Shown here piece by piece: positions 7,060-33,108 of a DNA stretch of 64,000 nt (positions within the stretch are counted from its first letter, which is position 1; each line of letters starts with the position of its first letter). Source of the DNA: Peterkaempfera bronchialis (GTDB lineage Bacteria > Actinomycetota > Actinomycetes > Streptomycetales > Streptomycetaceae). A program made the position numbers and the translations under genes. The DNA lies in NCBI RefSeq assembly GCF_003258605.2, contig NZ_CP031264.1:5642001-5706000 (forward strand), read 5' to 3'. The notes beneath the pieces were generated by a model. That model was not told where the DNA came from, did not search any database, and saw only the letters and a list, made by a program, of their open reading frames with translations.

Positions 7060-7134
<75 letters not shown>

Positions 7135-10774: not shown

Positions 10775-11083
10775 TTGCAGGAGCAGTCTGCCACCATGCC
10801 CGCCGCTGGGAGTGCACCGGGTGTGTACGCGCCGGGCCAGCTGGGCGAGTTGACCCAGATCGTGGACTTCGACCTGGTCGACGCGGTGCTGGAGGAAACC
10901 GGGGCGCGGGAGAAGCGGGTGCGGCTGCTGCCCGCCCGCGTCATGGTGTACTTCGTCCTGGCCCTGGCCTTGTTCGAGCACTGCTCCTACCGGGCGGTGT
11001 GGGACAAACTGACCGCGCACCTGCCCGTGGCCGTCATCGCGCGCCCGGCCGTCTCCTCGCTCTCCCGGGCCCGGCGCCGCCGG
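10775..11083 (+). pseudogene. IS4 family transposase, N-terminal fragment
   Basis: The frame starting at TTG 10775 reads GELTQIVDFDLVDAVLEETG, then RVRLLPARVMVYFVLALALF and YRAVWDKLTA, the N-terminal domain of IS4-type transposases. It stops abruptly at 11083, where an IS481 end begins, and the catalytic domain is missing. An inverted repeat (AACGGGACTCC at ~10720 and GGGAGTCCCGTT at ~10765) flanks the start and could hide it in an mRNA hairpin, as is common for transposases. Confidence 0.75.
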
Positions 11084-11571
11084 TGTACTGACCCGTGAGG
11101 TTGGGGACGCGGCTGGCGGGTGGCTCGCCTGCGAGTGCGGTGTGTCCGCGGTGGTGATTGTAGGTGTGGAGCCAGGCGGGGAAGGCGTCGCGTCGCTCCT
11201 GCTCGCTGCGGTAGGGCCTGGCGTAGGCCCACTCGTCGAGCAGGGTGCGGTTGAAGCGTTCGACCTTGCCGTTGGTCTGCGGCCGGTAGGGACGGGTGCG
11301 CTTGTGCGCGATCCCGGCGGCCGCGAGGACATCGCGCCAGGCGTGGGACTTGCAGCAGGAGCCGTTGTCGGTAAGGACGCGTTGGACGGTGATCCCGGCC
11401 TGGGCGAAGAACGCCTGGGCGCGGGTCCAGAACGCGGCGGCGGTCTCCTTGCGCTCGTCCGGCAGGATCTCGCTGTAGGCCAGGCGGGAGTGGTCGTCGA
11501 CGGCGTTGTGCAGGTAGCTGTAGCCCTCGCCGGAGCTGTTCTTCTTCCCGGCGGGGCGGCCGAGCTCCGGC
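11084..11571 (-). pseudogene. IS481 family transposase, C-terminal fragment
   Basis: The minus strand reads GYSYLHNAVDDHSRLAYSEI, ERKETAAAFW, RVLTDNGSC, HKRTRPYRPQTNGKVERFNR and YNHHRGHTAL, the C-terminal half of an IS481 DDE transposase. It is closely related to the intact copy at 31692. The outer end at 11084 (TGTACTGACCCG) corresponds to the intact element's terminal repeat. The first half of the element is gone, and the remnant is fused to the integrase gene at about 11562-11570. Confidence 0.8.
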
Positions 11572-12672
11572 GTCGGCCATCCAGGTCAGGCCGGTGTGGC
11601 GCAGGTCGTGGCGGTGTAGGTGTTCGTAGCTGAGGTCCCGGGTGACGTCGTCCCAGTGGGTGGCGTCGCGCAGGACTTCGGTGCTGATGCGACCGCCGCG
11701 CGGGCCGGTGTAGAGGCGGGCGTCCGGGTCGCCTCGCGCCGCTTGGATCCGCCTGACGATGAGCGGGCGCAATGGTTCGATGATCGGGATGAGGCGGGCG
11801 ACTCTGCCCTTGGTGTGCTTGTCGACCAGGCCGCCGGGAGCGGAGGTGGTCTGTCGGCGGCAGGTCAGGAGCCACTTGTCGGTATCGATGTCGCGGGCCC
11901 GGACTCCGGAGACCTCGCCGATCCGTGTGGCAGTGCAGGCGCTGTGGACGACGACATCACCCCATCCGCGATAGCGGTTGTATGAGGCCGCGACCAGGGC
12001 ATCGGCGAGTTGGGTGAGGGCGTCCCAGTCGCGCAGGGCGAGGGAGCGGGGGTCTCGCAGTTCGTCTTCGACCTGCTGGTATTCGCGCTGCCAGCCGGTG
12101 ATGTGGGCGGGGTTGCGTTCGAGGATGCCGTCCACGATGGCCTGCTCGAAGATGCGGGAGAGCATGGCGAGAGTGTTCTTGATCGTGGAGCGGCTGCAGC
12201 CATCGGCGATCCAGTCGAAAACTGCCGCAGTGATGAGAGCGGTAGTGATCAGGCGGAGGGGGAGCCGCCCGAGCTCGGGCTCGATCCGCAGGTGCCAGCC
12301 GGCGAGGTAAGGGGCGTGTGTGGTGGTTTCCAGGCCGGTCAGGATGACCGGGAGGCGGAGGTTGACGTAGTCGCCCAACGGCATGGAGGCCAGGGACGGG
12401 AGGACGGGGCTGCCGGTGGCGTCGGCCAGGATGGTCAGCCATTGGGTGACCAGTGTCGGGTCGAGCCCATTGTGGACGGCCCCTGCCAGGAAGCTGGCCC
12501 AGGCCTGCGTCTGGGCCGGGGTGGCCTGGGCGGCCGGCGGCCGGGGGTTGGTGAGCGGTGAAGTGCGGTATTGCGAGCGCAGGGCGCTCGGCGGAGCCGG
12601 AGGGTCGGCGGTGGTGATCTCGCTGAACGGATCCGGGGCGGCTGATTCCCAGGGATGCATTGAAGTACTCAT
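11563..12672 (-). pseudogene. int: tyrosine recombinase (integrase), C-terminally truncated by an IS481 fragment
   Basis: This is the probable integrase of the tRNA-Pro island. A SAM-like/core-binding N-terminal half (residues ~50-230) is followed by catalytic motifs: the first Arg in CTATRIGEVSGVRARDID, the beta-strand Lys region (TKGRVARLIPI), and HRHDLRHTGLTWMADAGA (HxxR box). The frame then runs out of the family after ADAGARP, into out-of-frame IS481 sequence. The second His/Trp and the catalytic Tyr are therefore missing. Without that Tyr, strand cleavage is not possible, so the island cannot excise with this protein. It is divergent from the Fic gene. Confidence 0.8.
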
Positions 12673-12731
12673 GCGCCATGGTTACGCCGATTCTGCTTGC
12701 TTGTTTGATGCCGTCATGGTGTCATTGCTTC

Positions 12732-13868
12732 ATGCTCTATGGTGTGCCCTCGCTGCAGGACATCGACCAGTCCGTCCTCGCGGAGATCGACGAGATGCGC
12801 GACCGGCTGCGTCTCCATCTGCGCACTTCACGTCGCTGGGAAGGGCAGCTGCGGCGTAACCTCACGGCGCGGGCGATCGCAGGATCGAACACGATCGAGG
12901 GCTACGCCGCGAGCGTGTCGGACGTCGAGGACATCATGGTCGGCGAAGCGCCGATCGATGCGAACGACACCGTCACGGCCGAGATCGAGGGTTATCGGCA
13001 GGCGATGACCTACATCCAGCGCCTCGCCGAAGCGGGCGACGACTTCGCGTACAGCAAGGGCCTGCTCAACGCGCTCCACTTCATGATGCAGGGCCACCAC
13101 CTGATCAAACGGCCCGGCTGGTGGCGTACCGGGCCGGTGTACGTCACCTCCGCCGAAGACCCGACCATCGCCGCGTACACCGCCCCTGATGCCCAGCAGT
13201 TGGCAGTACTGACTGACGAGCTGGTCGAGTGGCTGAACGAGGGCGACCTGAATGCTCCGGGACTGGTGCGGGCCTCGATGGCGCACCTGAACCTGGTAGC
13301 GATCCATCCGTGGTCGGACGGAAATGGGCGGATGTCTCGCGCCCTGCACACCCTGGTCCTGGCCCGTGAGGGGATCATGGCGCCGGAGTTCTCCAGCATC
13401 GAGGAATGGCTCGGCCGGGCCCGCAACACCTACCGCTACTACGACATCCTCGCTGATGTCGGTGGACCGGTCTGGACTCCGGACCGCGACACCTTGCCCT
13501 GGATCCGGTTCTGCCTGCGCGCCCACCACCAGCAGGCCCAGAGTGTCGAGCGCCAGGTGAACACCACCCGCGAGGTCTGGACCGCCCTCGACGAAGCCGT
13601 CGAGCAACGCGGCTGGCCCGACCGCATGCTCTACGCCCTCTACCCCGCGGCCATGGGAAACCGCCTGCGCCGCGCCACCTATCAGGCCGACGCCGGACTC
13701 AGCGAACAGCAGGCCCAACGCGACATCCGCGAACTTGTTCATGCCGGCTGGCTTGCTGCCCGGGGCGAGGCCCAGGGCCGCTACTACACCGCCGGCCCTG
13801 ACCTTCCTGAAGCCATCCTTCGAGGCGTACGGGAACCGCGGCCCCTTCGCGATCCTTATGCCTCCTGA
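12732..13868 (+). CDS. Fic family protein (predicted AMP-transferase) with N-terminal inhibitory motif
   Basis: This 378-residue protein (start MLYGVPSLQDID; an upstream ATG at 12660 would add an unlikely Cys-rich leader) contains the Fic core HPWSDGNGRMSR at about residues 191-202. This matches HxFx(D/E)GNGRxxR except for Trp in the aromatic position. An N-terminal SNTIEG near residue 52 fits the (S/T)xxxE(G/N) inhibitory helix, whose Glu blocks productive ATP binding. A C-terminal winged helix (QADAGLSEQQAQRDIRELVHAG) is likely DNA- or partner-binding. Fic proteins transfer AMP, or related groups, to target Ser/Thr/Tyr residues. The target is unknown. It lies in the island, divergent from the broken integrase, with no visible antitoxin gene, consistent with self-inhibition. 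Confidence 0.88.
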   Translation: MLYGVPSLQDIDQSVLAEIDEMRDRLRLHLRTSRRWEGQLRRNLTARAIAGSNTIEGYAASVSDVEDIMVGEAPIDANDTVTAEIEGYRQAMTYIQRLAEAGDDFAYSKGLLNALHFMMQGHHLIKRPGWWRTGPVYVTSAEDPTIAAYTAPDAQQLAVLTDELVEWLNEGDLNAPGLVRASMAHLNLVAIHPWSDGNGRMSRALHTLVLAREGIMAPEFSSIEEWLGRARNTYRYYDILADVGGPVWTPDRDTLPWIRFCLRAHHQQAQSVERQVNTTREVWTALDEAVEQRGWPDRMLYALYPAAMGNRLRRATYQADAGLSEQQAQRDIRELVHAGWLAARGEAQGRYYTAGPDLPEAILRGVREPRPLRDPYAS

Positions 13869-14983: not shown

Positions 14984-17743
14984 CTATTCCGCCACTGATG
15001 GACTACCGACTTCGGCGTCGTCGCTTGTTGCCGCCCCGCTCGTCGGCGTCGCTTCTCCAGCAAGCGGCAGGAGGTACTCCTCGGCCAGCTTCGCGAGGTG
15101 AAGAGGCAGTGGCCGGGAGAGCGGGTGGTACTCGTCGTGGAGGCGCAACTGGTGGACGGCCGCAGCCAGCAGCGCCGGTCGGTCCATGGGGCGGTCGGTC
15201 CGGCGAGCCAGTTCCAGAGCCTGTTCGGAGAGGCAGCCGAGTACGGTGAGTTCGAGTGCTTGCGGGTTCCAAGCGGTGGCGGCGGGGGCGTGTGGCCAGC
15301 GTGCGGTCGGGACGATTTTGCGCAGGTCGGTGCGGACCTTTCCACCGGTCGGCGGCTTCCCGACTGTGCTGGTGAAGACCCGGTTGTCAGGGTCGGCGCC
15401 CCGTGGAGCCCACAATCCGATAGACACCCCTGGAGTGTCGTCCTCCTGGGCCCCCGGGGCGTACCACTCGGCGGTCTCCTCTCGGCTGTTGGCATCCCGG
15501 AGGAGGACCACACGCAGATCGGCGCCGAACAGCGAGAGCCGGGCGGGTCGTTCTCCGTGGAAGACCAAGCGGTCCTTGGCTAGTTGACCATTGTTCAGGC
15601 CGAGCCAGACCTTGCGCAGGTTGCCGCTGTTGGCGAGCAACAGGGTGGGACGGTCCCGGACTTGGTACAGCAGTGACCTGATCTGCCGTTCGGCCTCGTA
15701 GCGGGTCTCCGTCTCCGTCGCGCGGGCCCGGTTCGTCTCCTCTCGGTGAACCGGAGCGGCGCCGGAGGTAGCAATGGTGAGCAGCAGTCGGGCGTACGGG
15801 ACCCAGCTCTTCTTGGCCTCGTCCCAGCCCTGGATCGGGTGCACCGGGTCGCGTGGGCGGATGCGGAGTGCGACGAGGTGGCGCCCGGCCTGCCGGGTGG
15901 CGGCGCCGGTCTGATGCCGGATGTGCCAGAGCGCCAGGTACTGCATGTCGTCGGTCAGGGCCTCGTCGAGCTTCTGTTCCGGAGGGACCATGGCGCCGAG
16001 TTGGCGCATCCCGTCCGCGACCGCGGAGTCGGCCCGTTCTGGCAGTGGGCCGTCGGCGTCCTCCGGGACGACGATGAATTGACTCACGCGCCCGGCTCCA
16101 GCGGACCCGAGACGCAGTGCCGATTTGGGATCGGTATCAGTAGCCGGGAAGCGGTCGCGTCCGAGGATCTCCACGAATGCGATTCCGACCGTCTCCCGAT
16201 GCGCGCCAAGCCTGTCGGTCATTCGCACCGCGCGTTCTCGAACGGCCGTCGCCACCGAATGGGCGCGAGAGAGGCTGGCTTCCCGGACCACCCGGAGGGC
16301 GCTGCCGAGAGACTCCAGCGTACGGGCATGGAGGACTACACACAGCCCGTCAGCGTGCCACTCGTATGTGCCGTCCGCATCGGGGACGGTGGACGGGAGG
16401 TCGAGCCATCGGCGCAGTGCGGCGATGAGTCCGTCCCGGGTTTCCTCGGTCTGCCAGACCACGTCCACGGACAGCGGCTGACCGTCGAGTACCGCGCGGA
16501 TGGCGGCGCGCCTGGCCTCGACGCGCAGCCGGGCGCGTTCGGCAAGCTTCTCCGGGGACTTGGTGTATGAGGCGGCGAGCAGTCTGGGGTTCGACCGGCG
16601 GTGTACCCGTTCGAGGGCAGGTACCCGGCGCAGGAACGGGCGGATGCCCTCTTCGACCCACTGGTCGAGGAGCATTCGCTCCAGCGGCATCAGGCCAGCG
16701 CCGACCCCGTGCTTGCCGAAGCCTGTGTCATAGAGAATGCCGGCAGCCACCCCGCCCCGGCCTGCCAGCCACTCGGTCGCCTCGCCGGTCAGTTCGGCGG
16801 GCTTCGGATACACGTGCTGGATGTCCAACTCCGGCAGGAGGTCGACCAGGCTCTGCCTGCTCCACACGGGCACGCGGAGGGTCCGGTCGAGGAGGATCGA
16901 GTTGACGGCGAGCCGGCGCCGCGGCTCGGAGGCCTCGGACCAGGGCATCGGTGCGTCGAGTAGGACGGTTGCCCCACTGCCGTTCTGCAGTTTCACCGGA
17001 GAGCCAGTGGCCCAGCGCCGCACGCCGTACGAGACGTGTACCCGGAAGCGATCCGTGAAGGGGACGGTCTGTACGGTGACCGTTACCAGTGCTGAGTAGT
17101 ACCAGGCACGCTTGTGCCTGGTGTAGGCGCGCGGCGGCCAGCTGACCAGTTCGACTCCTTGGTCCCGGGTGACCTGGCGGAAGCGCAGTTCGACGCCGTC
17201 CATCAGCAGAGGCCTGGCCGCGAGCAGTGCGCCGATCTTCTCCGGAAGCAGGTGGTAGAGGCGTCGGTCAGGTTCGGCGGTGCCGCCCGCGGAGAGTTCC
17301 GTGGCGGCGAGGTCGACGGACTCGTGGCGCCAACTCGGGGTCACCTCGTCGATCAGGGCGAGTGCCCGGTCCAGCGCGACTTCGTGCCCGGCGGCCCGCA
17401 CCGGATCTTTGTCCGCACCAGGAGGCAGGGTCATTACCCAGGAGGCCAGGAGCGGGGCCACCAACTCGGCCGGCTGGTCGTCGGTGGCGTAGAACCACGG
17501 CACCTCGGAGCTGGACCCCGCCCCCCGGCCGGTTGCCAGTACACCGGGTGCGGTGGCCCTCAGCAGTGCGTTGAGCCTGCGGATCGGCAGGCCGGGAGGC
17601 TGGTTCCGGCGCCACCGGCGGTGGTAGAGGTCCAGGAACTCGGTGCGCCACTCCTCGGGGAAGTGCATCACGCGGAACTGCTCGGACCACGGCCCGTGGT
17701 CGGGGTCGGGCTCGTAGGCGGTGTGGTGGATCAGTGAGTACAT
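14984..17743 (-). CDS. pPIWI-RE protein (Argonaute/PIWI-related, RNase H-fold C-terminus)
   Basis: This 919-residue protein is the last gene of the four-gene operon. Its architecture fits the pPIWI-RE family: an N-terminal X-like region (~1-330), a MID-like middle (~430-560), and an RNase H-fold PIWI module (~640-895). Recognisable features are the QYLALWHIRHQTG block, ARLLLTIATSG, a basic/acidic stretch around residue 670 (ETNRARATETETRY), and the C-terminal AVHQLRLHDEYHPLSRPLPL then HLAKLAEEYLL, a family hallmark. pPIWI-RE proteins are known from comparative genomics to have conserved Arg and Glu residues and to be encoded with a DinG-type helicase and REase-fold proteins. A role against plasmids or phage through RNA-DNA duplexes has been proposed. 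The ATG at 17743 overlaps the helicase gene by 13 bp, so translation is coupled. The nuclease residues cannot be confirmed by eye. Confidence 0.82.
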   Translation of the reverse strand: MYSLIHHTAYEPDPDHGPWSEQFRVMHFPEEWRTEFLDLYHRRWRRNQPPGLPIRRLNALLRATAPGVLATGRGAGSSSEVPWFYATDDQPAELVAPLLASWVMTLPPGADKDPVRAAGHEVALDRALALIDEVTPSWRHESVDLAATELSAGGTAEPDRRLYHLLPEKIGALLAARPLLMDGVELRFRQVTRDQGVELVSWPPRAYTRHKRAWYYSALVTVTVQTVPFTDRFRVHVSYGVRRWATGSPVKLQNGSGATVLLDAPMPWSEASEPRRRLAVNSILLDRTLRVPVWSRQSLVDLLPELDIQHVYPKPAELTGEATEWLAGRGGVAAGILYDTGFGKHGVGAGLMPLERMLLDQWVEEGIRPFLRRVPALERVHRRSNPRLLAASYTKSPEKLAERARLRVEARRAAIRAVLDGQPLSVDVVWQTEETRDGLIAALRRWLDLPSTVPDADGTYEWHADGLCVVLHARTLESLGSALRVVREASLSRAHSVATAVRERAVRMTDRLGAHRETVGIAFVEILGRDRFPATDTDPKSALRLGSAGAGRVSQFIVVPEDADGPLPERADSAVADGMRQLGAMVPPEQKLDEALTDDMQYLALWHIRHQTGAATRQAGRHLVALRIRPRDPVHPIQGWDEAKKSWVPYARLLLTIATSGAAPVHREETNRARATETETRYEAERQIRSLLYQVRDRPTLLLANSGNLRKVWLGLNNGQLAKDRLVFHGERPARLSLFGADLRVVLLRDANSREETAEWYAPGAQEDDTPGVSIGLWAPRGADPDNRVFTSTVGKPPTGGKVRTDLRKIVPTARWPHAPAATAWNPQALELTVLGCLSEQALELARRTDRPMDRPALLAAAVHQLRLHDEYHPLSRPLPLHLAKLAEEYLLPLAGEATPTSGAATSDDAEVGSPSVAE

Positions 17744-20700
17744 GAGGAACCTCGTCCTTCAGTGGTTTCGGTCAGGCAGCGGTTGAGGGCGGTCCACAGC
17801 GGCCGGTAGAGGGCCTGGACAATGCGGCGCTCGGCCTTCGGCTCCGAGCTGTCTGGGCCGAAGTAGGGGGTGAGCACGGCGTGGATGCTGTACAGCAGGC
17901 TCGTCTTCGGCGTGTCGGTGGGCCCGGTCGGGTCGGCCGCTGCCAGGCAGGGCGCGAACGCGGCATCGACGAAGGCGACCCGGGTGGGTACCGCGCCTCG
18001 GACGGAGCGGCCGATGACCTGCCAGATCAGTACCAGCATGTCCCAGGTGACCTGGACGCGGTCCTCTTCGCCGAGGTGACTCCAGGCCATGCTCCTGGCG
18101 AGGACGTGGAACCACTTGGACCGGGCGGCGTCGCGGAACCTGCGCGCACCCAGACCGAGTGTGGGCGCGTCGCGCACCAGATTGGAGAACCCGGTGCCGT
18201 CCATCAGCCGGACGATCCAGTCGTTGATCGCGTGCACCGCGAGGCCGAGGTCGTCGGGGCGGGGGTTGGGCCGGGCCAGGAAGTAGACCGAGCCGATCGC
18301 GGCCTCCTTGCTGTCGACGGCAAGGATGTTGTGCCCGCGCTCCACAGCGAGCAGCGGCGCCACCAAGATCTCGGCGTCCGTGGCGGCGAGCGTCTCGACG
18401 TCACCGCGGCGCAGTACCGGGGCGTGGTGCTCGTCGTCCAGTGGACGGGCGGCGGCATCCGGGTCGTCGTCGGACACCAGCCGCCGGACTTTGCCGCGCC
18501 AACGCTCGTTGAGTGTGTGCAGCGTGTCCGCCACCAGTGCGGCCTCGTCGTAACTGCCGACCAGGAGCAGGATGTGCCGACGGGGTTCCGGTAGTCGATG
18601 CAGTTCCCGAAGGAGGCGCCCCTGGCCCCGGTCGTTGCGGCCGAGCTCGGTGGCCATCCGGCGCAGCACGTCTTCGCGCCGGTCGATCGGCGCTCCGGAA
18701 AGCCGCAGGGCCTCGCTCGGACTGTCGCAGGTGCACCGCGCCGGGCAGGCGCAGGCCTCCCGAACGAACTCGAAGCGGAACTCGCTCTGGCCGGCGATCC
18801 GTTCCAGTTCCGCAGGGTCGGGTTCGATCAGTGTGCCGATCGGTACCGGAACGTGGTAGCGGCTGGACTTGTCGGCCCAGCTGCTGCCAGACATCAGCAG
18901 GACGTTGGTCCCCGGTAAGCCGTCCACCGTAGGTAGGTCCGGCATGGCGCGCAGCAGTTCACGCCCCACCCCGCTGCAGCGGAAGAAACGGAGCTCGCCG
19001 CTGCGGACACCGCCCTCGTCGCGTCCCTCCAGGAGGAACTGGAACCCGATCACATTGCCCATCGGGGACTCGGGGACCATCGGCGCGTAGTCGAGGGGGC
19101 GACGGTACATCTCGTTGAATCCGAGGCAGAGTGAGTCCGCGACCCGCGGCCACATGGTGTTGATCAGGGCGAGCTTGGGTTCCAGAGCACTGAGCAGCAG
19201 GGTGAACTCGAACCGGTCGAGCAGGGCCTCCAGCCAGTCGTCCGAGTTCTCAGGCAGGGGAGCGCGTCGCCGTTGCTTCGTGTCCTTGGCGGCACTCTCC
19301 TGCCGCCCTGTCGGCGTGGCCCGGTCCCCGTTCACCAGGGCCCTGAGCTCGCGGTACCGGTCCTGGTTCTCCTGACTCGCTCCCAGGAGCGGGGCGAGGC
19401 CGAAGAGGTCGCACACCACCTCTCGCAGCCGGGTGCGAGTGTGCTCGCGGTAGTTGGTATGGAGCAGTTCGCCGAGCAACCCGAGCAGTGGCAGGGTGTC
19501 GTCCTTGGGCGGCCGCCGGTCGCCGAAAGGGTTGTCCCGGAAAGCGTCCAGGAGATCCATCAGGTGCTTCCGCGGTTCCCGGTGCGGGTGCTCGACGGTG
19601 GGGCCGACCCGGTCGTCGAGGTTCTCCGGCAGGGGGAAGCGCTCTTCCAGCAGGCGCAGTTGGAGGGTTCCGGCACTGAAGTAGCCGGTTCGGACCCATT
19701 TGCGCAGGTCGAAGTCGCGGACCAGCATCGCCACCAGCCGGTCCGCGGCAGCCTGGGTGGTGTTCACCGCCGCCGACCAGTTCTCCACGTCGCGATCGGA
19801 CAGTTGTACCCGCCCGGCGCTGGCCAGCTCTCGGATGCGGTGCTGGTTGACCTCGTCGAGGAACGAGCGAGTGTCGGGGCCGCCGCCGAGCAGCGGGATG
19901 GCAGGGGCGAACATGCGGTCGAGTTGCATCTGCACCCGGTCCGCCTCGTCGACGATCACCAGGTCGCTGCGTCGGCAGGCGAGTTCGAGGTAGCGGATGC
20001 GCTCCGGGTTCTGCGGGTGCGGGACACGGGAATCCACCAGGCTGGGCGGGGTGGATACCCAGATCCTCGCGTCGACCAAGGACCGTGGCCCGTGGTGGCG
20101 CGGGCAATGGGACCAGAACGGACAGACCATCCGGTACGAGGTCCACGGGTCATCGGGGTCCTTCTCACGCTTCCTGGGAGGTTGAAGCCTGGTGCATGGC
20201 GCTTCACCGAAGCCCAAGAGGTCGTCAGCGGGGTGGCCGTCGGCGTGGCGCAGCGCGTTCAAAGCGCAGGAGGTGCTCAGGTACTGGAAGCCTGGATCCA
20301 GGTGGGCGAGCAGGTTGGGCTCGCCGCGTCCTGCCGTCCTGCGGTGGAGTCGTTCGGCGTGCTGCTGGCGGCCCGTTGCTCCGAGGACGGGTGTGGCGGA
20401 GCCGGCAACGTGGGTGTTGTAGAGCTCGACCAGTTTGAGCTGCTCCGCGACGTCGCCAACCACCACCGTCACGTTCCGTCCCTGTCGGGCGAGGTGCACG
20501 GCCAGGACGTCCCGAAGCGTGCTCTTGCCAGCGCCGACGATTCCGAGCAGGTGCTCGATGCCGGACACGGAGAAGCCGCGGGCGGGACGGAAGCGTCCGC
20601 GGCGGCGTGTGGACAGCCGAATCGCCTTCAGACGGGTGACCCAGCCAGCCGGCTTCCGGGCGTCCATGGCCGCGGCCGTGATCAACAGCTTCTTCCACGT

Positions 20701-21288
20701 GAAGGTCAGGGGTCTGCCTGCGTGGACCGGCAGCCGTCCGAGGTCGTGCCCGGGCGGATTGGGGGCTGTGTGTTCCGGGAGCAGCACGGTGGTCAGGTGC
20801 CGGCCGATGGGGAAGGCGTGCCAGCCGGGGTCGGCGAAGGTGGCCGGCTCGCCGGTGAACGGCGGCGCCTGGTTCAGCAGGCGCTCGTAGGAGGCCCACC
20901 GGTCCTCCGCCACCGAGAGCGACGGACGGCGTGCGGCGGGGGCGTCCGGGTCCGGTACGTCGAAGGCCCTGAGTTGGCGGTCCTGCTGCTGGTAGTCCTT
21001 CAACGCCTCGGACCAGGCGAGTCGGCGCCCCCAGGTCCACAGGGCGTAGCGTGCGGTGCGACGGGTGTGTTCCTGCCGGTCGGAGATGTCGTCGCGCTCA
21101 CGGGCGAACGGGTAGCCGCTGAACAGGGTCCAGCCCTCCGCGGCAGGAGCACCGGGGGTGAGCTGCTCCTGGAGGAACAGGCCGAGTTCGATCTCACACA
21201 GGTCGACCAGCTTGCGGCGTGGCAGTTCAGAGCCGGTGGAGCGGAGTTCCCGCACCACCTGGTGCAGGGCCTTGGCAGTGCTACGCAC
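17731..21288 (-). CDS. pPIWI-RE-associated DinG/XPD-like superfamily 2 helicase with Fe-S cysteines
   Basis: This 1,185-residue protein begins with a pPIWI_RE_Z-like N-terminal region. Walker A is GIVGAGKSTLRDV (~residue 248), and Walker B is LVIVDEADRVQ, a DEAD box (~448). Between them lie four cysteines (TSCALN ~341, APCTRL ~364, MVCPFW ~388, SHCPRH ~394), as in the Fe-S domain of XPD/DinG helicases. Motif VI is WQVIGRSVRG (~1090). These predict ATP-driven unwinding of duplex or R-loop substrates. The GTG start at 21288 has GGGAGGA just upstream and overlaps the preceding gene by 8 bp. It is tightly coupled to the pPIWI-RE gene. Confidence 0.82.
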   Translation of the reverse strand: MRSTAKALHQVVRELRSTGSELPRRKLVDLCEIELGLFLQEQLTPGAPAAEGWTLFSGYPFARERDDISDRQEHTRRTARYALWTWGRRLAWSEALKDYQQQDRQLRAFDVPDPDAPAARRPSLSVAEDRWASYERLLNQAPPFTGEPATFADPGWHAFPIGRHLTTVLLPEHTAPNPPGHDLGRLPVHAGRPLTFTWKKLLITAAAMDARKPAGWVTRLKAIRLSTRRRGRFRPARGFSVSGIEHLLGIVGAGKSTLRDVLAVHLARQGRNVTVVVGDVAEQLKLVELYNTHVAGSATPVLGATGRQQHAERLHRRTAGRGEPNLLAHLDPGFQYLSTSCALNALRHADGHPADDLLGFGEAPCTRLQPPRKREKDPDDPWTSYRMVCPFWSHCPRHHGPRSLVDARIWVSTPPSLVDSRVPHPQNPERIRYLELACRRSDLVIVDEADRVQMQLDRMFAPAIPLLGGGPDTRSFLDEVNQHRIRELASAGRVQLSDRDVENWSAAVNTTQAAADRLVAMLVRDFDLRKWVRTGYFSAGTLQLRLLEERFPLPENLDDRVGPTVEHPHREPRKHLMDLLDAFRDNPFGDRRPPKDDTLPLLGLLGELLHTNYREHTRTRLREVVCDLFGLAPLLGASQENQDRYRELRALVNGDRATPTGRQESAAKDTKQRRRAPLPENSDDWLEALLDRFEFTLLLSALEPKLALINTMWPRVADSLCLGFNEMYRRPLDYAPMVPESPMGNVIGFQFLLEGRDEGGVRSGELRFFRCSGVGRELLRAMPDLPTVDGLPGTNVLLMSGSSWADKSSRYHVPVPIGTLIEPDPAELERIAGQSEFRFEFVREACACPARCTCDSPSEALRLSGAPIDRREDVLRRMATELGRNDRGQGRLLRELHRLPEPRRHILLLVGSYDEAALVADTLHTLNERWRGKVRRLVSDDDPDAAARPLDDEHHAPVLRRGDVETLAATDAEILVAPLLAVERGHNILAVDSKEAAIGSVYFLARPNPRPDDLGLAVHAINDWIVRLMDGTGFSNLVRDAPTLGLGARRFRDAARSKWFHVLARSMAWSHLGEEDRVQVTWDMLVLIWQVIGRSVRGAVPTRVAFVDAAFAPCLAAADPTGPTDTPKTSLLYSIHAVLTPYFGPDSSEPKAERRIVQALYRPLWTALNRCLTETTEGRGSSCTH

Positions 21289-22321
21289 GAGTCCTCCCGG
21301 GTCGGTCGCTCAAGTACGGAGCCATGAATTCGCTGACGGATCTGAGCCGCACCTGGGCGCCGTCGGGAAGGTTGTGGCCGAAGGCCTTCCGGTAGCCCGG
21401 TCGGTCGACGACTGCGTCGGGTATCACGACGTCGAGCGGGGAGTCTTCGAGGGTGGCCAACTCGGCGGCCCGGAAGGCGGCCAGCGCAGGTTGTGTGCGA
21501 TTGAACACTCGGACGGCCCTGCCCATCCCGTCCTCGTGGACGAGTCGAAGGCCGCCCGTCCCGGTCGGCACGAGCCGGGACCCACCGGGCAGCTTCTTGC
21601 GTAGGGCCAGTTCGGTGCGGCCGGGGAGGACGAGGAAGAGCCGGACAGCGCGGGGGAGCGCGATCGGGTGTTTGGGTTCCTCCGCCTTCTCTAGCCCTCC
21701 AGGCCGCGTCTGGCACCCTCCCTCGCACCATTCCCCATCCGTTGACTTGGCGAACAGCAGGCACTCCGTGCAGGTGGTGACCGTGCGGCCAGCCGAGAAG
21801 TTCTCAGGCACCGGCTCGTACAGTTCCCGAACCAGTCGCCACGTGCGGATGGTGGTCGGACGCATGAGTTTGGAGCTGTCAGGGTTCAGGATGACGGGGT
21901 GCGCGATCAGGAAGTCCCGACAAGCGGCGAACCGGCCGGGGGTTCCGCAGGCGTCGGTGAGGTCGGCGATCACTCGGGCGGCGGCTTGTTCGACTCTGCC
22001 GAGGCGGCCGTACGAGGCGAGTTCGGCACAGGTTCGGGTCGGCTCGGCCGAGCTTCGGTCGATCAGCCGGGCGTCATCGGTAAGGACGCCTGGTGGGAGC
22101 GCCAGCGGCCACGTCGTGAGGAGATCCCGGCAGCGTAACAGCAGATCGGGAACGCTCAGGGGTGCCGGCCGGTCCTGCTTGAGGCATGTCAGCACAACCC
22201 GATCAAAGGCGAGTTGAGTACTCGCCGGATAAGGGAGACGGAGGGCTGCCGGACGGGGAACGTCGCTAAGGTCAAGCACGCCGCGAGCCACCGCCGCCAG
22301 CAGTTCGAAGTCCGGGCTCAC
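21281..22321 (-). CDS. pPIWI-RE module protein with zinc-ribbon (Y) and REase-like C-terminus
   Basis: I place the start at GTG 22321, whose first base is the last of the upstream TAG (TAGTG), with AGGAGG 7 nt before it; a longer frame to 22393 lacks this. The 346-residue product has a helical N-terminal half, then a metal-binding cluster CTEC...WCEGGC (~186-203), as in the pPIWI_RE_Y region. A C-terminal alpha/beta part follows, with FLVLPGRTELALRKKLPGG, VHEDGMGRAVRVFN and LDVVIPDAVVDRPGYRKAFG, which may be the REase-fold domain described for this operon. That last assignment is inference. It is coupled by overlaps to genes on both sides. Confidence 0.7.
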   Translation of the reverse strand: MSPDFELLAAVARGVLDLSDVPRPAALRLPYPASTQLAFDRVVLTCLKQDRPAPLSVPDLLLRCRDLLTTWPLALPPGVLTDDARLIDRSSAEPTRTCAELASYGRLGRVEQAAARVIADLTDACGTPGRFAACRDFLIAHPVILNPDSSKLMRPTTIRTWRLVRELYEPVPENFSAGRTVTTCTECLLFAKSTDGEWCEGGCQTRPGGLEKAEEPKHPIALPRAVRLFLVLPGRTELALRKKLPGGSRLVPTGTGGLRLVHEDGMGRAVRVFNRTQPALAAFRAAELATLEDSPLDVVIPDAVVDRPGYRKAFGHNLPDGAQVRLRSVSEFMAPYLSDRPGRTRA

Positions 22322-23868
22322 TACTTGGCCTCCTGCGAAGGCTCTGGCAGCCGCCGGGCCGAGCACCAGCGTGCCATCTCGCAGCTCTCGCACTCCGCGC
22401 TTGGCGTTGCTTCGAACAGGCGCTCCTGGTGCCAGCCGATGACCTGTCCGCGCAGCACCGCCTCGGCTGCGGCTGCGGTCTCCGGTTCGAACGGGTCGAG
22501 GCTCCGGAGGTCTACGCCGTCGGGGCGCAGCAGTTCGAGCTCAACCCGGTCGGCGGCCAACAAGCCCTTGGCGATGATCCTCACCGCCAGCGCCAGCTGA
22601 GGGTAGGCCGAGAGCAGGTCGCGCGGCATTCTCCTGCCAGCGGAGGTCTTGGTCTCGCGCCATACCCACGAGCCGCGTTCGCGGTACAGCAGGTCGGGCT
22701 CTGTCAGCACCAGCAGATCAGCCGCAGGGTCGTCGAACACCAGGAGGGGTTCCGGTGCCCTCTCGGACTGTGGATCGGCGATGCGGAGCGGGCACACCTC
22801 GGCGTGATGACGCAGAAGGCGGGCGCCGAGGAGACACTGGGACTGCGGTAGCCGGTAGCCGTCGGGGACCCAGTCGGCGGGTACGTCGGAGGTGCACGGA
22901 GTGCGTTCCTCCTGACCGTGCCGGGCGGAGAGGAAGGCATGGACGGCGCGTCCGCGCTCAGCCGCGGCGCTGCGTTCGACGGAGTCGTCCACTGGGAGCC
23001 GCAGGCCACGAAGGTAACCGCGCGCCGGGCAGGAGCTGTGCCCTCGGCCGGTGGTCGGGGACCAGCTTCGGCGTGGCCGGGTGCGATCGGCTATCCCGAG
23101 CAATCCGGGCGCTCGCGGCAGCGCAGGGCAGACGGGTGCCACCCGGCAGGACGCGCAGGCCGACCCGGGTCGGTACTTCGGATGGTCCAGGAGCGCCCGG
23201 ATCGCGTGCGCCCCGTCCTGCCGATAGAGGGCCAGCGCTTCTGCCCGGATGCCGTCGAACAGCACTTCGGTCCGGCCATCGGAGAGCGCGAACTGCGCCA
23301 CCCGGACGTGCTCCAGCCGATCGTCGGGATCGCCTTCCGCCACGATCAGGGCCGCGATCGCCCGCTCGGCGTCCGTACGGTTCCGCAGTCGGTTCACCGG
23401 GAGCCGGAGTTCTCGCAGGCGGCCGTCCGCCGATTCGAAGCACCGCCCCCAGGCGCTGATCCGGTACTCCGTGCTCGCGGGCCCGCCGCCTCGTGAGTCG
23501 CGGTGCCGGTAGCTCCAGTGACGCGGGGCCGGCCGGAGCGCCTGGCTGTCGGCGAACGCCGTCTCGTACATCCGGAGGGCATGCCGGGTCCATTGGCGTA
23601 CCCCGTCGTGGGTGGGTCTGGTGGACCTGCCCGACCCTGTGTCGTCGTCCGGCAGTTCGATCCGGTCGAGCTCGGCCATGAACGGGCCGTTGGTGAACGT
23701 GTCCAATGCCTCGGGTTTCCATGCGGCCGATCGGGCCGGGCGCATTCCGCGAGCCTTGAGCGCATCCGACGCCGGGCACCGGTAGCGTTCCGGTCCGAAC
23801 ATCCCCAGGCGGATGTCGACCAGGGAAGAACGTCTGATCAGGCCTTCGGGTGGCCAGGTTCCTGCCAT
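22321..23868 (-). CDS. PD-(D/E)XK nuclease, Cas4/AddB-like with two cysteine clusters
   Basis: This is the first gene of the pPIWI-RE operon. The ATG at 23868 lies behind GAGGGAGAG; a GTG at 23880 is the alternative. The 515-residue protein carries CASCRVAPVC at ~237-246 and CESCEMARWC at ~492-501. Between them is a PD-(D/E)XK core: RGRAVHAFLSARHG (helix with His), LLVLTEPDLLYRER (metal Asp) and VWRETKTSAG (E-x-K), followed by AYPQLALAVRII (the QhxxY-like helix). The cysteines could ligate an Fe-S cluster, as in Cas4/AddB nucleases. A DNA exonuclease or processing role is inferred. It is divergent from the kinase gene, with only 72 bp between the starts. Confidence 0.78.
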   Translation of the reverse strand: MAGTWPPEGLIRRSSLVDIRLGMFGPERYRCPASDALKARGMRPARSAAWKPEALDTFTNGPFMAELDRIELPDDDTGSGRSTRPTHDGVRQWTRHALRMYETAFADSQALRPAPRHWSYRHRDSRGGGPASTEYRISAWGRCFESADGRLRELRLPVNRLRNRTDAERAIAALIVAEGDPDDRLEHVRVAQFALSDGRTEVLFDGIRAEALALYRQDGAHAIRALLDHPKYRPGSACASCRVAPVCPALPRAPGLLGIADRTRPRRSWSPTTGRGHSSCPARGYLRGLRLPVDDSVERSAAAERGRAVHAFLSARHGQEERTPCTSDVPADWVPDGYRLPQSQCLLGARLLRHHAEVCPLRIADPQSERAPEPLLVFDDPAADLLVLTEPDLLYRERGSWVWRETKTSAGRRMPRDLLSAYPQLALAVRIIAKGLLAADRVELELLRPDGVDLRSLDPFEPETAAAAEAVLRGQVIGWHQERLFEATPSAECESCEMARWCSARRLPEPSQEAK

Positions 23869-23940
23869 ACTCTCCCTCACCTCTTTTCCATTGCTCTCCG
23901 AACCCGTGTACCGGGCAGATCTGGTCTTGGAGTTTGCGTC
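23869..23940. promoter_or_regulatory. divergent control region between pPIWI-RE operon and kinase gene
   Basis: The 72 bp must hold promoters for both directions. It contains the inverted repeat CCCGTGTACCGGG (~23909), a possible operator, and the kinase ribosome-binding GGAG at 23929-23932. No convincing -35/-10 pair is evident. The shared region suggests the two transcripts are co-controlled. Confidence 0.4.
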
Positions 23941-24831
23941 TTGCGTCCTGGCACCCTCCTGAATAACCGCTTTCGTGTCCTACGGGAACTCGGCGAAGGC
24001 GGCGAAGGTGAACTCTTCGTTGCCCGTGATGAATACGACCGCCGGGATGTTGCTGTCAAGGCTCAGTTTCGACGCTTTGGTCAATCATTGACTGATTACG
24101 CCAGGGAAGCCGAGCCGCTCGAGGATGAGCTGGTCCGACTGCAGTTCATGGAATCGGTGCCTGGTATTCCCCGCGTGCTGGGCGAGGGCTCGCACGATGG
24201 TTGGGGCAAGCGGCGATACATCGTGATGGAACTGATCGACGGTTCCACACTCCGGTCCTGGATGGGCCGACACCAGCCGGTGCTCGCCACCGACGCGGCC
24301 TGTGTGGTGGCTCAGCTCTGCGATACCTTGGCGCTGGTGCATGAGCGCTACGTTCATCGGGACGTGACGCCGAACAATGTGATGATTCAGCCCGACGGGC
24401 GGATTCGACTCCTCGACGTGGGCAACTCCACAGATTTCTCGACACCGAACTATGACCCCCGCGGGACGCCCGGCTACGCCGCTCCCGAGCAGTATGTGCA
24501 GGACTCCGATACCACCGCGAAGTCCGACGTCTTCGCGCTCGGTGCCCTGCTCTTCGAGATGGTGACCTCGGAACTGCCCTACAGCCGTGTCGAGGGCCCA
24601 CCCGGCGAGACGGAGCCGGCCTTCCCGAACGGACTCGATGCCCATGTGCCCGAAAAGCTGAAGAGCCTCGGTCTCGCCATGGTCGCCGTCGACCCGCGCG
24701 AGCGCCCCGAGGTTTCGGAGGTTCGCGGCTACCTCGCCACCTGGCTGCCGATGTTCGGCGACCCCCGGAGCCCGAAGGCCGCCCGTCCCGACCCCTCGGC
24801 GTACTTCCGGCTGGTCGTGCCAGCCCGATGA
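23941..24831 (+). CDS. Ser/Thr protein kinase (PknB-like, cytoplasmic)
   Basis: The TTG at 23941 follows GGAG by 8 nt, giving 296 residues, a bare kinase domain without a membrane segment or PASTA tail. Motifs seen: Gly loop LGEGGEGELF (~17-26), VAVKAQ (ATP Lys), EAEPLEDEL (alphaC Glu), MELIDGSTLRSW hinge, catalytic loop HRDVTPNNVMI (~139-149) with Thr where Lys is usual, DVG in place of DFG (~160), and GTPGYAAPEQ activation/APE segment. Asp of HRD, Asn of PNN and Asp of DVG are all present, so activity is plausible. It is divergent from the pPIWI-RE operon and convergent with the SARP/NB-ARC gene (15 bp between ends). The link to the operon is inferred from position. Confidence 0.85.
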   Translation: MRPGTLLNNRFRVLRELGEGGEGELFVARDEYDRRDVAVKAQFRRFGQSLTDYAREAEPLEDELVRLQFMESVPGIPRVLGEGSHDGWGKRRYIVMELIDGSTLRSWMGRHQPVLATDAACVVAQLCDTLALVHERYVHRDVTPNNVMIQPDGRIRLLDVGNSTDFSTPNYDPRGTPGYAAPEQYVQDSDTTAKSDVFALGALLFEMVTSELPYSRVEGPPGETEPAFPNGLDAHVPEKLKSLGLAMVAVDPRERPEVSEVRGYLATWLPMFGDPRSPKAARPDPSAYFRLVVPAR

Positions 24832-24846
24832 GCCCGGGATGGAGGG

Positions 24847-27561
24847 TCACGAGAGTTGCCGCTGACGCTCCACCGCAGCGTCGAGGTTTTTCTCACCAAG
24901 CCTCGCCAGGAGCAGACGAGCTTCTTCGACGACCTGCTCGGCGTCCTGGTCGCGGCCCAGCGCGCTGAGCGAGTCTGAGAGCCGGACCAACGTCCTGGCC
25001 TCCCGACTCGGGTAGGCCATCGAGCGGTAGAGCGTCAGCGCGTGACCGTAGGCGGTCACCGCCGCGTCGTGCTCGCCGATCGCAGCCCGAATACGGCCCA
25101 TGGTGAACGAGCCGTGTGCTTGGCCGTTGAGATCGGCGGTGCCTTCCAACAGGGCTAACGACCGGCGGCAGTACTCGAGGGCTGAGAAGTGGTCGCCGGC
25201 TTGGTGGTGGACGTTGGCGAGCCCGTCGAGCGCGGCTCCCTGTCCGAGCCGGTCGTCCTGCGTTTTGAAGCCTGCCAGAGCGGCCCTGAGTTCCGCCACC
25301 GCCGGGTCGGTGACGCCGTCCTCGTGCAGCATGATGCCCAGGCTGTAACGGCCCAGCGCGGTGCCCTTCAGGTCGCCGTGGTCCTGGCTGGTGCGGACCG
25401 CCCCACGCAGTTCCGCCATGGCCCTCGCACGATCGCCGAGTCCGCGGTGGGTTCCGGCGAGCAGGCGTCGGATCATGGCCACGTCTTCCGGCCCGGCGAT
25501 CCGTTCGGCTGCCGGGAGGGCGTTGGTGAGGTGACCGAGGGCGTCCAGGTATCGGTGGGACCGCCATTGATAGGTCAGCAGAGTGAGCGCCAGGAGCCAG
25601 GTGTACCGGTCGAGTCGGATTCTCCCGGCCATCTGGAGCGCGGCGCTCAGGGTGGCGTACTCGGCGTCGAACCAGGCCGTCGCGGCCGCGTGGTCCCTGG
25701 GTGAGACCACGGGGAACTCCCCGTTCGCCGTGATCGGCAGCCGGCGATCCGGGTCGAGTACCAGATCACAGGACCAGGCGTTCTGCAGCAGGAACTCCAG
25801 TACTCGGCGGAGGCTCTCGTCATAATCTCCAGGAGCTTGCTGATCGGCCAGCTGCGTGGCGTAAATGCGGACCAGGTCGTGCATGGCGTATCGGTCGAGG
25901 GTTGGCTCGGTCACCAGACTCATGTCGATTAGGTCGTCCAACGATCGGCCGACCGTCGCATGGTCGTGCCCCAGCGCCTGAATCGCGCGCCAGCTGATCG
26001 TCGGGCCAGGATGCACGGAGAGTTGCCACAGCAGCTTGGCGGCAGGCGTGGGCAAGAGCCGGTAGGAACTCTCCAGCAGGGAGCTGACGTTCAACTCGTC
26101 GGTACGCAGGTCGAGAGGACGCAGCCCGGAACGATCCTCCAGTAGTCTGCGGACGACGCCCGGCAAGTCCTGGGGCTGGCGGCGGCCGATCTGGGCGGAC
26201 ACGATGCGCAGAGCGATCGGCAAGCCGGAGCAGTAGTCGAGCAAGGAGCCGGCGAATGGTCTGGCAAGTCCCATCCGTTCCTCTCCCAGGGATGCTTTCA
26301 ACAACTCGCCGGCCTCGTGGCGGTCGAGCGGCGCGAGATCGATCGGCTTCGCACCTTCCTTGACCACCAGCCCCTCCAGCCGCCGGCGGCTGGTGACGAT
26401 CGCGGCGCTTCGGCCCTGACCGGGCAGCAGAGGTCGGACCTGTGCCTCGTCCCTGGCGTTGTCCAGGACGACCAGCACTCGGCGGTCCGATAGTGCCGAA
26501 CGGTACGCCGATACCAGCCCGTCGACGTTCACGGTGGCCGGGGTCGTCCGCAAGTCGTTCAGGAACCGGACCAGGACGGAGGCGACTTCCTCGGGCTCGA
26601 GGGTGGAGAATCCCCTCAGGTCGATGTACAGGACCCCGTCCGGAAAGTTCGGTGCGAGGTGCTGGGCTGCGGCCACCGCGAGGAACGTCTTCCCGACGCC
26701 CGCCAGGCCCGCCACGACGGCGATCGGCCCCGACCCGGGCTCCCTGCCCAGCACGACGTCGGCGAGGAGCTTCAGCTCTGATCGGCGGCCAATCAGCTGC
26801 TTTTGCTGGGCTGGCAGCTGGTTCAGCCGCTCGAGGACTCCCAGATCCGGGGGCTTGATGCCGGACGTGAGGATGTTCTCCTGGCTCGTCCTTGCCAGAA
26901 GCAGATGGGCGGTCGGCCGGTTGAAGCGGAGCTTCCATTGAGCGAGCAGTGGGTCGATGGCGTAGTGGCGGCCCAGCGCACCCAGTGACTGGACTTTGAG
27001 GCCAAGTAGCGTCTCGCTGTCGGGCCAGTGCACCAGTGCGTCGTCGGCCCGCTGGAGCGCGATGTGGGGTTCGGAACACTCCAGGTCGGTGCGCACACAG
27101 TCCGCGAAAGCGTCATGCAGCTCGCGGAGGATCCAGGATCGCCGCTGGGCGAAGGCTTCACCCGGCAGGTCCTCCAGCGGAGCACCTCCGCGCCATTCGG
27201 CCAGCGAAGTCAACAGCGCGCCGCGCCGCTTCTGTGGATTCCCGGTGCGGAGCGCGGTGGCGTACTGGCTCCGGAAGCGGACCAGGTCGACGCTCGCGGG
27301 GTCGACCTGGATGTGGGTGGCGCCACCGCTGTTTCCCACCTCCAGTCCCACGGCGCGGCGCAACCTGAGACAGTACTGCCGGATGTTCGAGGGCTTCGTG
27401 TCTTCGCCCGGCCAAAGGAATCGAACAATTTCTCGATGGGGAACCGGTTCGCCAGGGGACAGCAGTAGAAGAGCCAGAAGCTCGCGGGTCTTGCCTGACG
27501 GGACATCGACCGATTGTCCGTCATCGAGTGCGGCCAACTGTCCGAGCAGGTGGAACTTCAT
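24847..27561 (-). CDS. AfsR/SARP-type regulator with NB-ARC (STAND) ATPase and TPR domains
   Basis: The ATG at 27561 (MKFHLLGQL) is the natural SARP start; a GTG at 27690 would add 43 atypical residues. The 904-residue protein has an OmpR-like winged helix (~1-95; SGKTRELLALLLLSPGEPVP and PSNIRQYCLRLRRAVG), a BTAD all-alpha region (~95-240), and an NB-ARC ATPase with Walker A GLAGVGKTF (~283), Walker B RRVLVVLDNARDE, SRRRLEGL and GLPIALRI. About six TPR-like repeats (~640-890) follow. AfsR in S. coelicolor is known to be activated by a Ser/Thr kinase (AfsK). The adjacent kinase gene therefore suggests a kinase-SARP pair. The target genes are unknown but could include the pPIWI-RE operon. Confidence 0.88.
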   Translation of the reverse strand: MKFHLLGQLAALDDGQSVDVPSGKTRELLALLLLSPGEPVPHREIVRFLWPGEDTKPSNIRQYCLRLRRAVGLEVGNSGGATHIQVDPASVDLVRFRSQYATALRTGNPQKRRGALLTSLAEWRGGAPLEDLPGEAFAQRRSWILRELHDAFADCVRTDLECSEPHIALQRADDALVHWPDSETLLGLKVQSLGALGRHYAIDPLLAQWKLRFNRPTAHLLLARTSQENILTSGIKPPDLGVLERLNQLPAQQKQLIGRRSELKLLADVVLGREPGSGPIAVVAGLAGVGKTFLAVAAAQHLAPNFPDGVLYIDLRGFSTLEPEEVASVLVRFLNDLRTTPATVNVDGLVSAYRSALSDRRVLVVLDNARDEAQVRPLLPGQGRSAAIVTSRRRLEGLVVKEGAKPIDLAPLDRHEAGELLKASLGEERMGLARPFAGSLLDYCSGLPIALRIVSAQIGRRQPQDLPGVVRRLLEDRSGLRPLDLRTDELNVSSLLESSYRLLPTPAAKLLWQLSVHPGPTISWRAIQALGHDHATVGRSLDDLIDMSLVTEPTLDRYAMHDLVRIYATQLADQQAPGDYDESLRRVLEFLLQNAWSCDLVLDPDRRLPITANGEFPVVSPRDHAAATAWFDAEYATLSAALQMAGRIRLDRYTWLLALTLLTYQWRSHRYLDALGHLTNALPAAERIAGPEDVAMIRRLLAGTHRGLGDRARAMAELRGAVRTSQDHGDLKGTALGRYSLGIMLHEDGVTDPAVAELRAALAGFKTQDDRLGQGAALDGLANVHHQAGDHFSALEYCRRSLALLEGTADLNGQAHGSFTMGRIRAAIGEHDAAVTAYGHALTLYRSMAYPSREARTLVRLSDSLSALGRDQDAEQVVEEARLLLARLGEKNLDAAVERQRQLS

Positions 27562-27637
27562 GTCAACCCCCAATGTCAAAGCGCGAATTGCCCGATGGCT
27601 GCGCCTAGGACAGCATCGCACGAGCCGTCGAAAGCTC

Positions 27638-33058: not shown

Positions 33059-33108
33059 CACTTGACTGGGGGTCAAGGAGTTGCAGGTTCAAATCCTGTC
33101 GTCCCGAC
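33059..33108. repeat. attR: partial tRNA-Pro copy
   Basis: This is the 3' 50 nt of tRNA-Pro from the anticodon arm onward, 48/50 identical to 7085-7134. The 5' half (acceptor and D arms) is missing, so it is not a functional tRNA. It marks the right boundary of the island. Confidence 0.85.

Follow-up and report, generated by a model that had tools for sequence, protein, structure and literature searches.

Six neighbouring genes in a 64,000-nucleotide stretch of the Peterkaempfera bronchialis chromosome (NZ_CP031264.1, positions 5,642,001 to 5,706,000; hereafter, the window) form one conserved, co-inherited and selected unit. Four of them make up a pPIWI-RE operon, which encodes a PD-(D/E)XK protein (PprPDDEXK), a protein with a restriction endonuclease (REase) fold (PprRE), a DinG-like helicase (PprDinG) and a PIWI protein (PprPIWI). 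The other two encode a Ser/Thr kinase and an AfsR-like SARP activator of the STAND type. An original prediction, made from the letters of this part of the actinobacterial, 7.09-Mb chromosome alone, had proposed the locus as a candidate uncharacterised immune system. The core is of a known kind: three of its genes were described in 2013 (PMC3702460), it is present in PADLOC-DB 2023, and there is a biochemical study of one PIWI-RE protein (PMC10991935). What is undescribed in the literature that we searched is the six-gene form, with a kinase, a STAND activator, and a PIWI and an REase that are both degenerate. No description of a link between a kinase or SARP and PIWI-RE was found there, an absence that does not prove that none has been published, and we found no mention of kinase and SARP/STAND partners in the 2013 study (PMC3702460).

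The evidence for a six-gene unit comes from a comparison of loci in 392 genomes of the order, 49 of which had a PIWI match, together with 62 loci from a named genome collection; in a sample of the class, 9 of 395 genomes had a PIWI match. Among the 12 nearest relatives in the first set (PIWI 42-69% identical), kinase and SARP lay at the same place in every case. In a PIWI tree of the combined set, 46 rows formed one clade (97% support in the Shimodaira-Hasegawa-like approximate likelihood ratio test, SH-aLRT), and 45 of these had both genes. The sole exception, L077, has the kinase, and the position of its SARP falls past the end of the sequence covered. Gene order and orientation, SARP><KIN<>PDDEXK-RE-DinG-PIWI, were identical in 45/45 complete loci of this clade, which span several families of Actinomycetes. 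The original prediction had made its case depend on the recurrence of both genes beside other copies of the operon, and the association proved stronger than a reading of one sequence could know.

Each of 12 genomes examined contained 19-50 matches to the kinase and 7 to 54 matches to the SARP, and in all 12 the best match to either protein was the operon-adjacent copy. If all matches were equally likely, the chance of the 11 non-self kinase cases would be about 1e-17, a naive figure given that the genomes are related. The distance matrices of the six genes have correlations of 0.97-0.99, and the Nocardiopsis copies nest inside those of Streptomyces. In five sampled pairs, the ratio of non-synonymous to synonymous substitution rates (dN/dS) of every one of the six lies within 0.15-0.48, which shows purifying selection. 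Additionally, several Streptomyces share a block of 13.05-13.1 kb at 97-98% identity, and the following 10 kb is without similarity. Some copies are damaged: L041/L092 and L084 carry a broken SARP frame, whereas L108 (Kibdelosporangium) has split PIWI and DinG frames and no kinase, all of which suggests either decay of the copies or errors in sequencing. In L077, extra sequence is inserted inside the operon.

The identical order in 45 loci, the best matches in 12/12 genomes, the co-inheritance and the selection together rule out a chance neighbourhood of kinase and SARP. They also bear on the idea that these two genes are an independent module hitch-hiking beside the operon. Such a module would explain why the kinase is divergent and the SARP lies beyond it, so that neither is in the operon, and why the SARP is absent from PIWI-RE clades that carry a methyltransferase or the genes c10-c13 (see below). 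However, it fits poorly with the strict order, with the co-inheritance into Nocardiopsis, nested within Streptomyces, and with the purifying selection on kinase and SARP themselves, and we regard it as very improbable.

The identity of the core is clear. Four minus-strand open reading frames (ORFs), each overlapping the next, are present as originally described (Table 1), and profile matches give the transcription order PprPDDEXK, PprRE, PprDinG, PprPIWI. The 919-residue PprPIWI matched pPIWI_RE_X (7e-109), RNaseH_pPIWI_RE (2e-63) and the MID profile (1.5e-22), all above the Pfam cut-off; PprDinG matched pPIWI_RE_Z (5e-40) and the PprDinG model (4e-246), and PprRE and PprPDDEXK matched their own models at 7e-77 and 2e-122. 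All four proteins fit the PADLOC-DB Ppr models across nearly their full length, so that the assignment to pPIWI-RE is borne out for the whole operon, whereas hits of the kinase and SARP in that database are confined to kinase and TPR models of a general kind. REase, DinG and PIWI genes follow one another in the strict order and with the overlapping ends of the three-gene island of REase-Y, DinG-Z and pPIWI-RE described by Burroughs, Iyer and Aravind, in which ends overlap or lie close (PMC3702460). Unlike that island, the cassette has PprPDDEXK as the first gene of the operon, and its PprRE is catalytically dead in the window's clade.

Table 1. Features of the six-gene cassette and of the island that carries it (window coordinates).
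Feature	Position	Strand	Remarks
Core operon	14984..23880	-	four overlapping ORFs
PprPIWI	14984..17743	-	919 aa; domain X, MID, RNase H; R788 and E831 kept
PprDinG	17731..21288	-	1185 aa; domain Z and XPD/DinG-like helicase
PprRE	21281..22393	-	370 aa; domain Y, zinc ribbon and REase fold; D-x-K lost in clade
PprPDDEXK	22321..23868	-	515 aa; tandem Cas4/AdnA-like domains; ORF reaches GTG 23880
Divergent spacer, kinase/operon	23869..23940	.	72 bp; presumed promoter/operator
Ser/Thr kinase, soluble	23941..24831	+	296 aa; glycine loop, VAVK lysine, HRD, DVG and APE all present
AfsR-like SARP	24847..27561	-	about 904 aa; winged helix, BTAD, NB-ARC (GLAGVGKT) and TPR; convergent with kinase
attL	7109..7134	+	last 26 bp of tRNA-Pro (tRNA 7060-7134)
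Integrase, tyrosine (phage-type)	10987..12672	-	island integrase
SoFic-like Fic gene	12660..13868	+	same island; PADLOC 5e-43
DUF4209/PDC-S39-like gene	29633-31297		same island
attR	33083..33108	+	exact 26-bp copy of tRNA-Pro 3' end; 50 bp at 96%

The distribution of catalytic residues within the core, counted over 36 rows for PprPDDEXK and over 36 diverse rows for PprPIWI, was uneven. PprPIWI has the X-MID-RNase H architecture with the conserved R and E of the family: R788 and E831, assigned to these by position, are each present in 35/36 rows. Of the two catalytic aspartates that correspond to D525 and D610 of PsPIWI-RE, the first is missing; at the core columns (600-608 and 622-630) of the two opening strands of the RNase H domain, the region in which this residue has to lie, D or E occurs in 0/36 rows, and D750, which resembles the second aspartate, is kept in 26. 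Mutating either aspartate abolishes cleavage by the Pseudomonas PIWI-RE protein (PMC10991935), and not every member of the family is catalytic (PMC3702460). Because the first position lacks an acidic residue and such mutants are inactive, the PIWI protein of the window is predicted to bind rather than to cut. Its AlphaFold model (predicted local distance difference test score, pLDDT, 85.8) has an Argonaute fold, with matches to MpAgo, RsAgo and human Ago, the best being the Marinitoga protein MpAgo with guide RNA (E 6e-10).

PprRE has undergone a similar loss. In distant clades it has a (V)D-x-K-D motif, with K312 in every copy and D310 in nearly all; in the clade of the window these positions align with non-catalytic residues (R and F in the window) in a profile alignment of 100% probability. 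Of the zinc-ribbon/REase type to which the original prediction assigned this protein, the zinc ribbon is kept and the REase catalytic residues are not. By contrast, in PprPDDEXK the residues D392, E405, K407 and Q424 are invariant in 36/36 rows, as are two sets of four cysteines, C280/493/496/502 and C31/238/241/247, which suggest two iron-sulphur (Fe-S) clusters in one protein. These patterns point to tandem Fe-S PD-(D/E)XK domains, of which the second alone would be active, and PprPDDEXK is the sole nuclease of the cassette whose catalytic motif is intact. The model of PprPDDEXK (pLDDT 91) is similar to AdnA, a Cas4 protein and ACE1 (E 2e-6). No convincing PDB relative of PprPIWI or PprPDDEXK was found by sequence; the matches came from the fold search alone. 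PprDinG conserves Walker A (GIVGAGKST), the DE box, the CP.W..CPRH cysteines and motif VI (QVIGR.VRG).

The kinase is a match to Pfam Pkinase (5e-29) with its catalytic motifs intact. Alignment with homologues favours TTG 23941 as its start and ATG 23868 as that of PprPDDEXK, and the 72-bp distance given in the original prediction holds after these start corrections. The SARP, which starts near 27561-27567, has the AfsR-type architecture of winged helix, BTAD, NOD and TPR: BTAD was over its cut-off, Trans_reg_C (3e-4) under it, NB-ARC and TPR were both found, and an LWPG winged-helix block is conserved among orthologues. It aligns nearly full-length with solved AfsR structures (8k60, 3e-65; also 8jke). 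Its score against NCBIfam AfsR (3e-86, 290 bits) is far under the model cut-off of 1430 bits, and we therefore regard it as AfsR-related and not AfsR proper. As in AfsK/AfsR of Streptomyces coelicolor, a Ser/Thr kinase gene lies near a SARP-NOD-TPR activator (PMC10936776); however, the cassette kinase is small, consisting of a kinase domain only, and both genes here belong with a nuclease-helicase-PIWI operon rather than with antibiotic control.

Together, these observations lead to a model in which the core provides immunity, the kinase and STAND protein provide control and PIWI uses guides, three elements that we infer. By analogy with AfsR, the TPR/NB-ARC part of the SARP would sense a signal, and the activated protein would drive the operon, and perhaps the kinase too, from the 72-bp spacer. 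The kinase would set SARP activity, either as an activator or as a brake, the latter being the effect of AfsK phosphorylation on ATP-bound AfsR in vitro. AfsR itself is autoinhibited by its NOD-TPR part and released by ATP, and phosphorylation by AfsK raises its ATPase activity and counteracts ATP in vitro (PMC10936776). Once produced, PprPIWI with a guide would recognise but not cleave its target, an RNA-DNA hybrid or complementary foreign DNA; PprDinG would unwind this target, and PprPDDEXK would degrade the exposed strand. This effector scheme builds on the suggestion, made in 2013, that PIWI-RE detects RNA-DNA hybrids and brings in DinG (PMC3702460). The nuclease step is given to PprPDDEXK because the PprRE and PIWI sites are degenerate. 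PprPDDEXK may also make guides, as it resembles the Argonaute-associated ACE1, which we take to have a role in guide handling. ACE1 and pAgo (PDB 9iab/9iac) likewise combine a Cas4-fold nuclease with an Argonaute-fold protein, but pPIWI-RE is a separate PIWI family, here without the catalytic Asp and with a helicase added, and PprPDDEXK has two domains of the Fe-S type.

Several points weigh against this model. Streptomycetes have many SARP proteins, and most targets known for them are biosynthetic genes. Neither a SARP-type repeat nor a significant dyad was found in the spacer, whether in the spacer alignment or by shuffling, in which 15/200 shuffles equalled the dyad. AfsK phosphorylation alone affects AfsR weakly (PMC10936776), and knockout of PIWI-RE in Pseudomonas stutzeri gave a replication-stress phenotype without demonstrated immunity (PMC10991935). 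Weighing both sides, we give slightly less than an even chance to a mobile six-gene defence cassette whose pPIWI-RE effector core and on-locus control pair work as proposed. An operator based on dyads was set aside, the dyads present in several spacers being not clearly above the shuffle level. Separately, a TCGARCC-like heptamer was noticed by eye in the spacers of part of the clade; it is not claimed as a site.

A different role for the kinase is suggested by PIWI-RE loci outside this clade. Other actinobacterial cores keep the four genes and have different divergent modules. A second pPIWI-RE operon of the same genome (G000:C1 3705086-3719800; L003/L004), with a PIWI about 33% identical, is accompanied by an N6-methyltransferase (the sole PF02384 match of the genome), a kinase and an unknown 589-aa gene, c19. 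In the subclade of L050, L053, L055, L056, L123, L129 and L130, a four-gene module c10-c11-c12-c13 adjoins the core; c13 is AAA/helicase-like, and c10-c12 are without Pfam or PADLOC match. Other actinobacterial PIWI-RE clades lack the SARP, as does a cyanobacterial relative, which has the three-gene form only; the original claim that kinase and SARP are part of the system thus stands for the lineage of the window and does not extend to these. Two distant Nonomuraea loci, L104 and L106, have a kinase nearer the methyltransferase type and yet a SARP-like gene, and are possibly intermediate between control modules.

Kinases also adjoin distant, SARP-less cores with an N6-methyltransferase (OWN2, L049, L051, L052, L054, L126), so that a kinase is a more widespread companion of the core than the SARP. 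The kinase might itself act in the defence reaction by phosphorylating proteins of the core or the host during infection, in the manner proposed for BREX PglW, MADS MAD6 or PD-T4-6-type kinases, and the SARP alone be regulatory. In agreement with this, the best PADLOC matches of the kinase are PD-T4-6 and mad6. However, matches within this family reflect the general protein kinase fold, kinase and SARP are strictly coupled in the clade of the window, and in some PIWI-RE clades the flank covered contains no kinase. MADS and BREX are methylation-based systems with a kinase; the cassette kinase is related to mad6, and the N6-methyltransferase that distant PIWI-RE clades combine with a kinase is related to mad2. 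The cassette differs from MADS and BREX in its core proteins and, in this clade, in having no methyltransferase at the locus. We consider an effector kinase unlikely, and prefer control of the core by the kinase-SARP pair.

The surroundings of the cassette bear on its function. It lies in a 26-kb island between attachment (att) repeats of 26 bp, of which none is expected by chance, together with an integrase, three insertion sequence (IS) transposases, a SoFic-like Fic gene and a PDC-S39-like gene. Chromosomal synteny with the nearest relative, L071, ends at the end of tRNA-Pro, and another genome of the genus (G002 C77:61319-73719) has at the same tRNA a 12-kb stretch with the same type of repeat and no PIWI-RE. 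From the repeats, the integrase, the synteny break and this second island we conclude that a tRNA-Pro island carries the cassette as cargo; the tRNA gene looks like an integration hot spot in the genus, with different islands in two species. The SoFic-like and DUF4209/PDC-S39-like proteins are probably further defence cargo. A phage origin was rejected, as a search for close relatives found no PIWI in viral contigs and there was no viral structure match at E<=0.001, and so was a plasmid home, with just six plasmid records, all distant. Elsewhere in the window, a strongly coding ORF of 1794 aa was noted at 54435-59819.

This context of integrase island, att repeats and SoFic-like gene fits a role in anti-phage defence. 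The core could instead be non-immune, handling host R-loops or replication stress, with the kinase-SARP pair tuning it to growth or development: deletion of PIWI-RE makes P. stutzeri sensitive to ciprofloxacin (PMC10991935), and DinG-type helicases act on R-loops (PMC3702460). However, a patchy spread (49/392 genomes of the order, 9/395 of the class sample and neither of the two other genomes of the genus), transfer as a block with unrelated downstream flanks, and the place in such an island suit defence better than housekeeping, and we hold a non-immune role to be improbable.

A bolder reading, which we offer only tentatively, is immunity by a nuclease-dead PIWI, in which recognition is split from cutting, PprPDDEXK is sole nuclease and possible guide maker, and a kinase and an AfsR-type STAND protein act as the switch; pPIWI-RE cores would swap control modules (kinase and STAND protein, kinase and methyltransferase, or c10-c13) between lineages. 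The prediction of pPIWI-RE systems dates from 2013, and few tests of them have followed. Given 45 orthologous loci, catalytic residues that are clearly assigned to particular proteins, and a kinase and STAND activator that are conserved, the mechanism lends itself to direct testing. The results suggest that signalling genes can switch PIWI-type immunity on and off and, if the control is real, this would be the first case known to us of an AfsK/AfsR-like pair, of the kind that regulates antibiotics, running Argonaute-type immunity.
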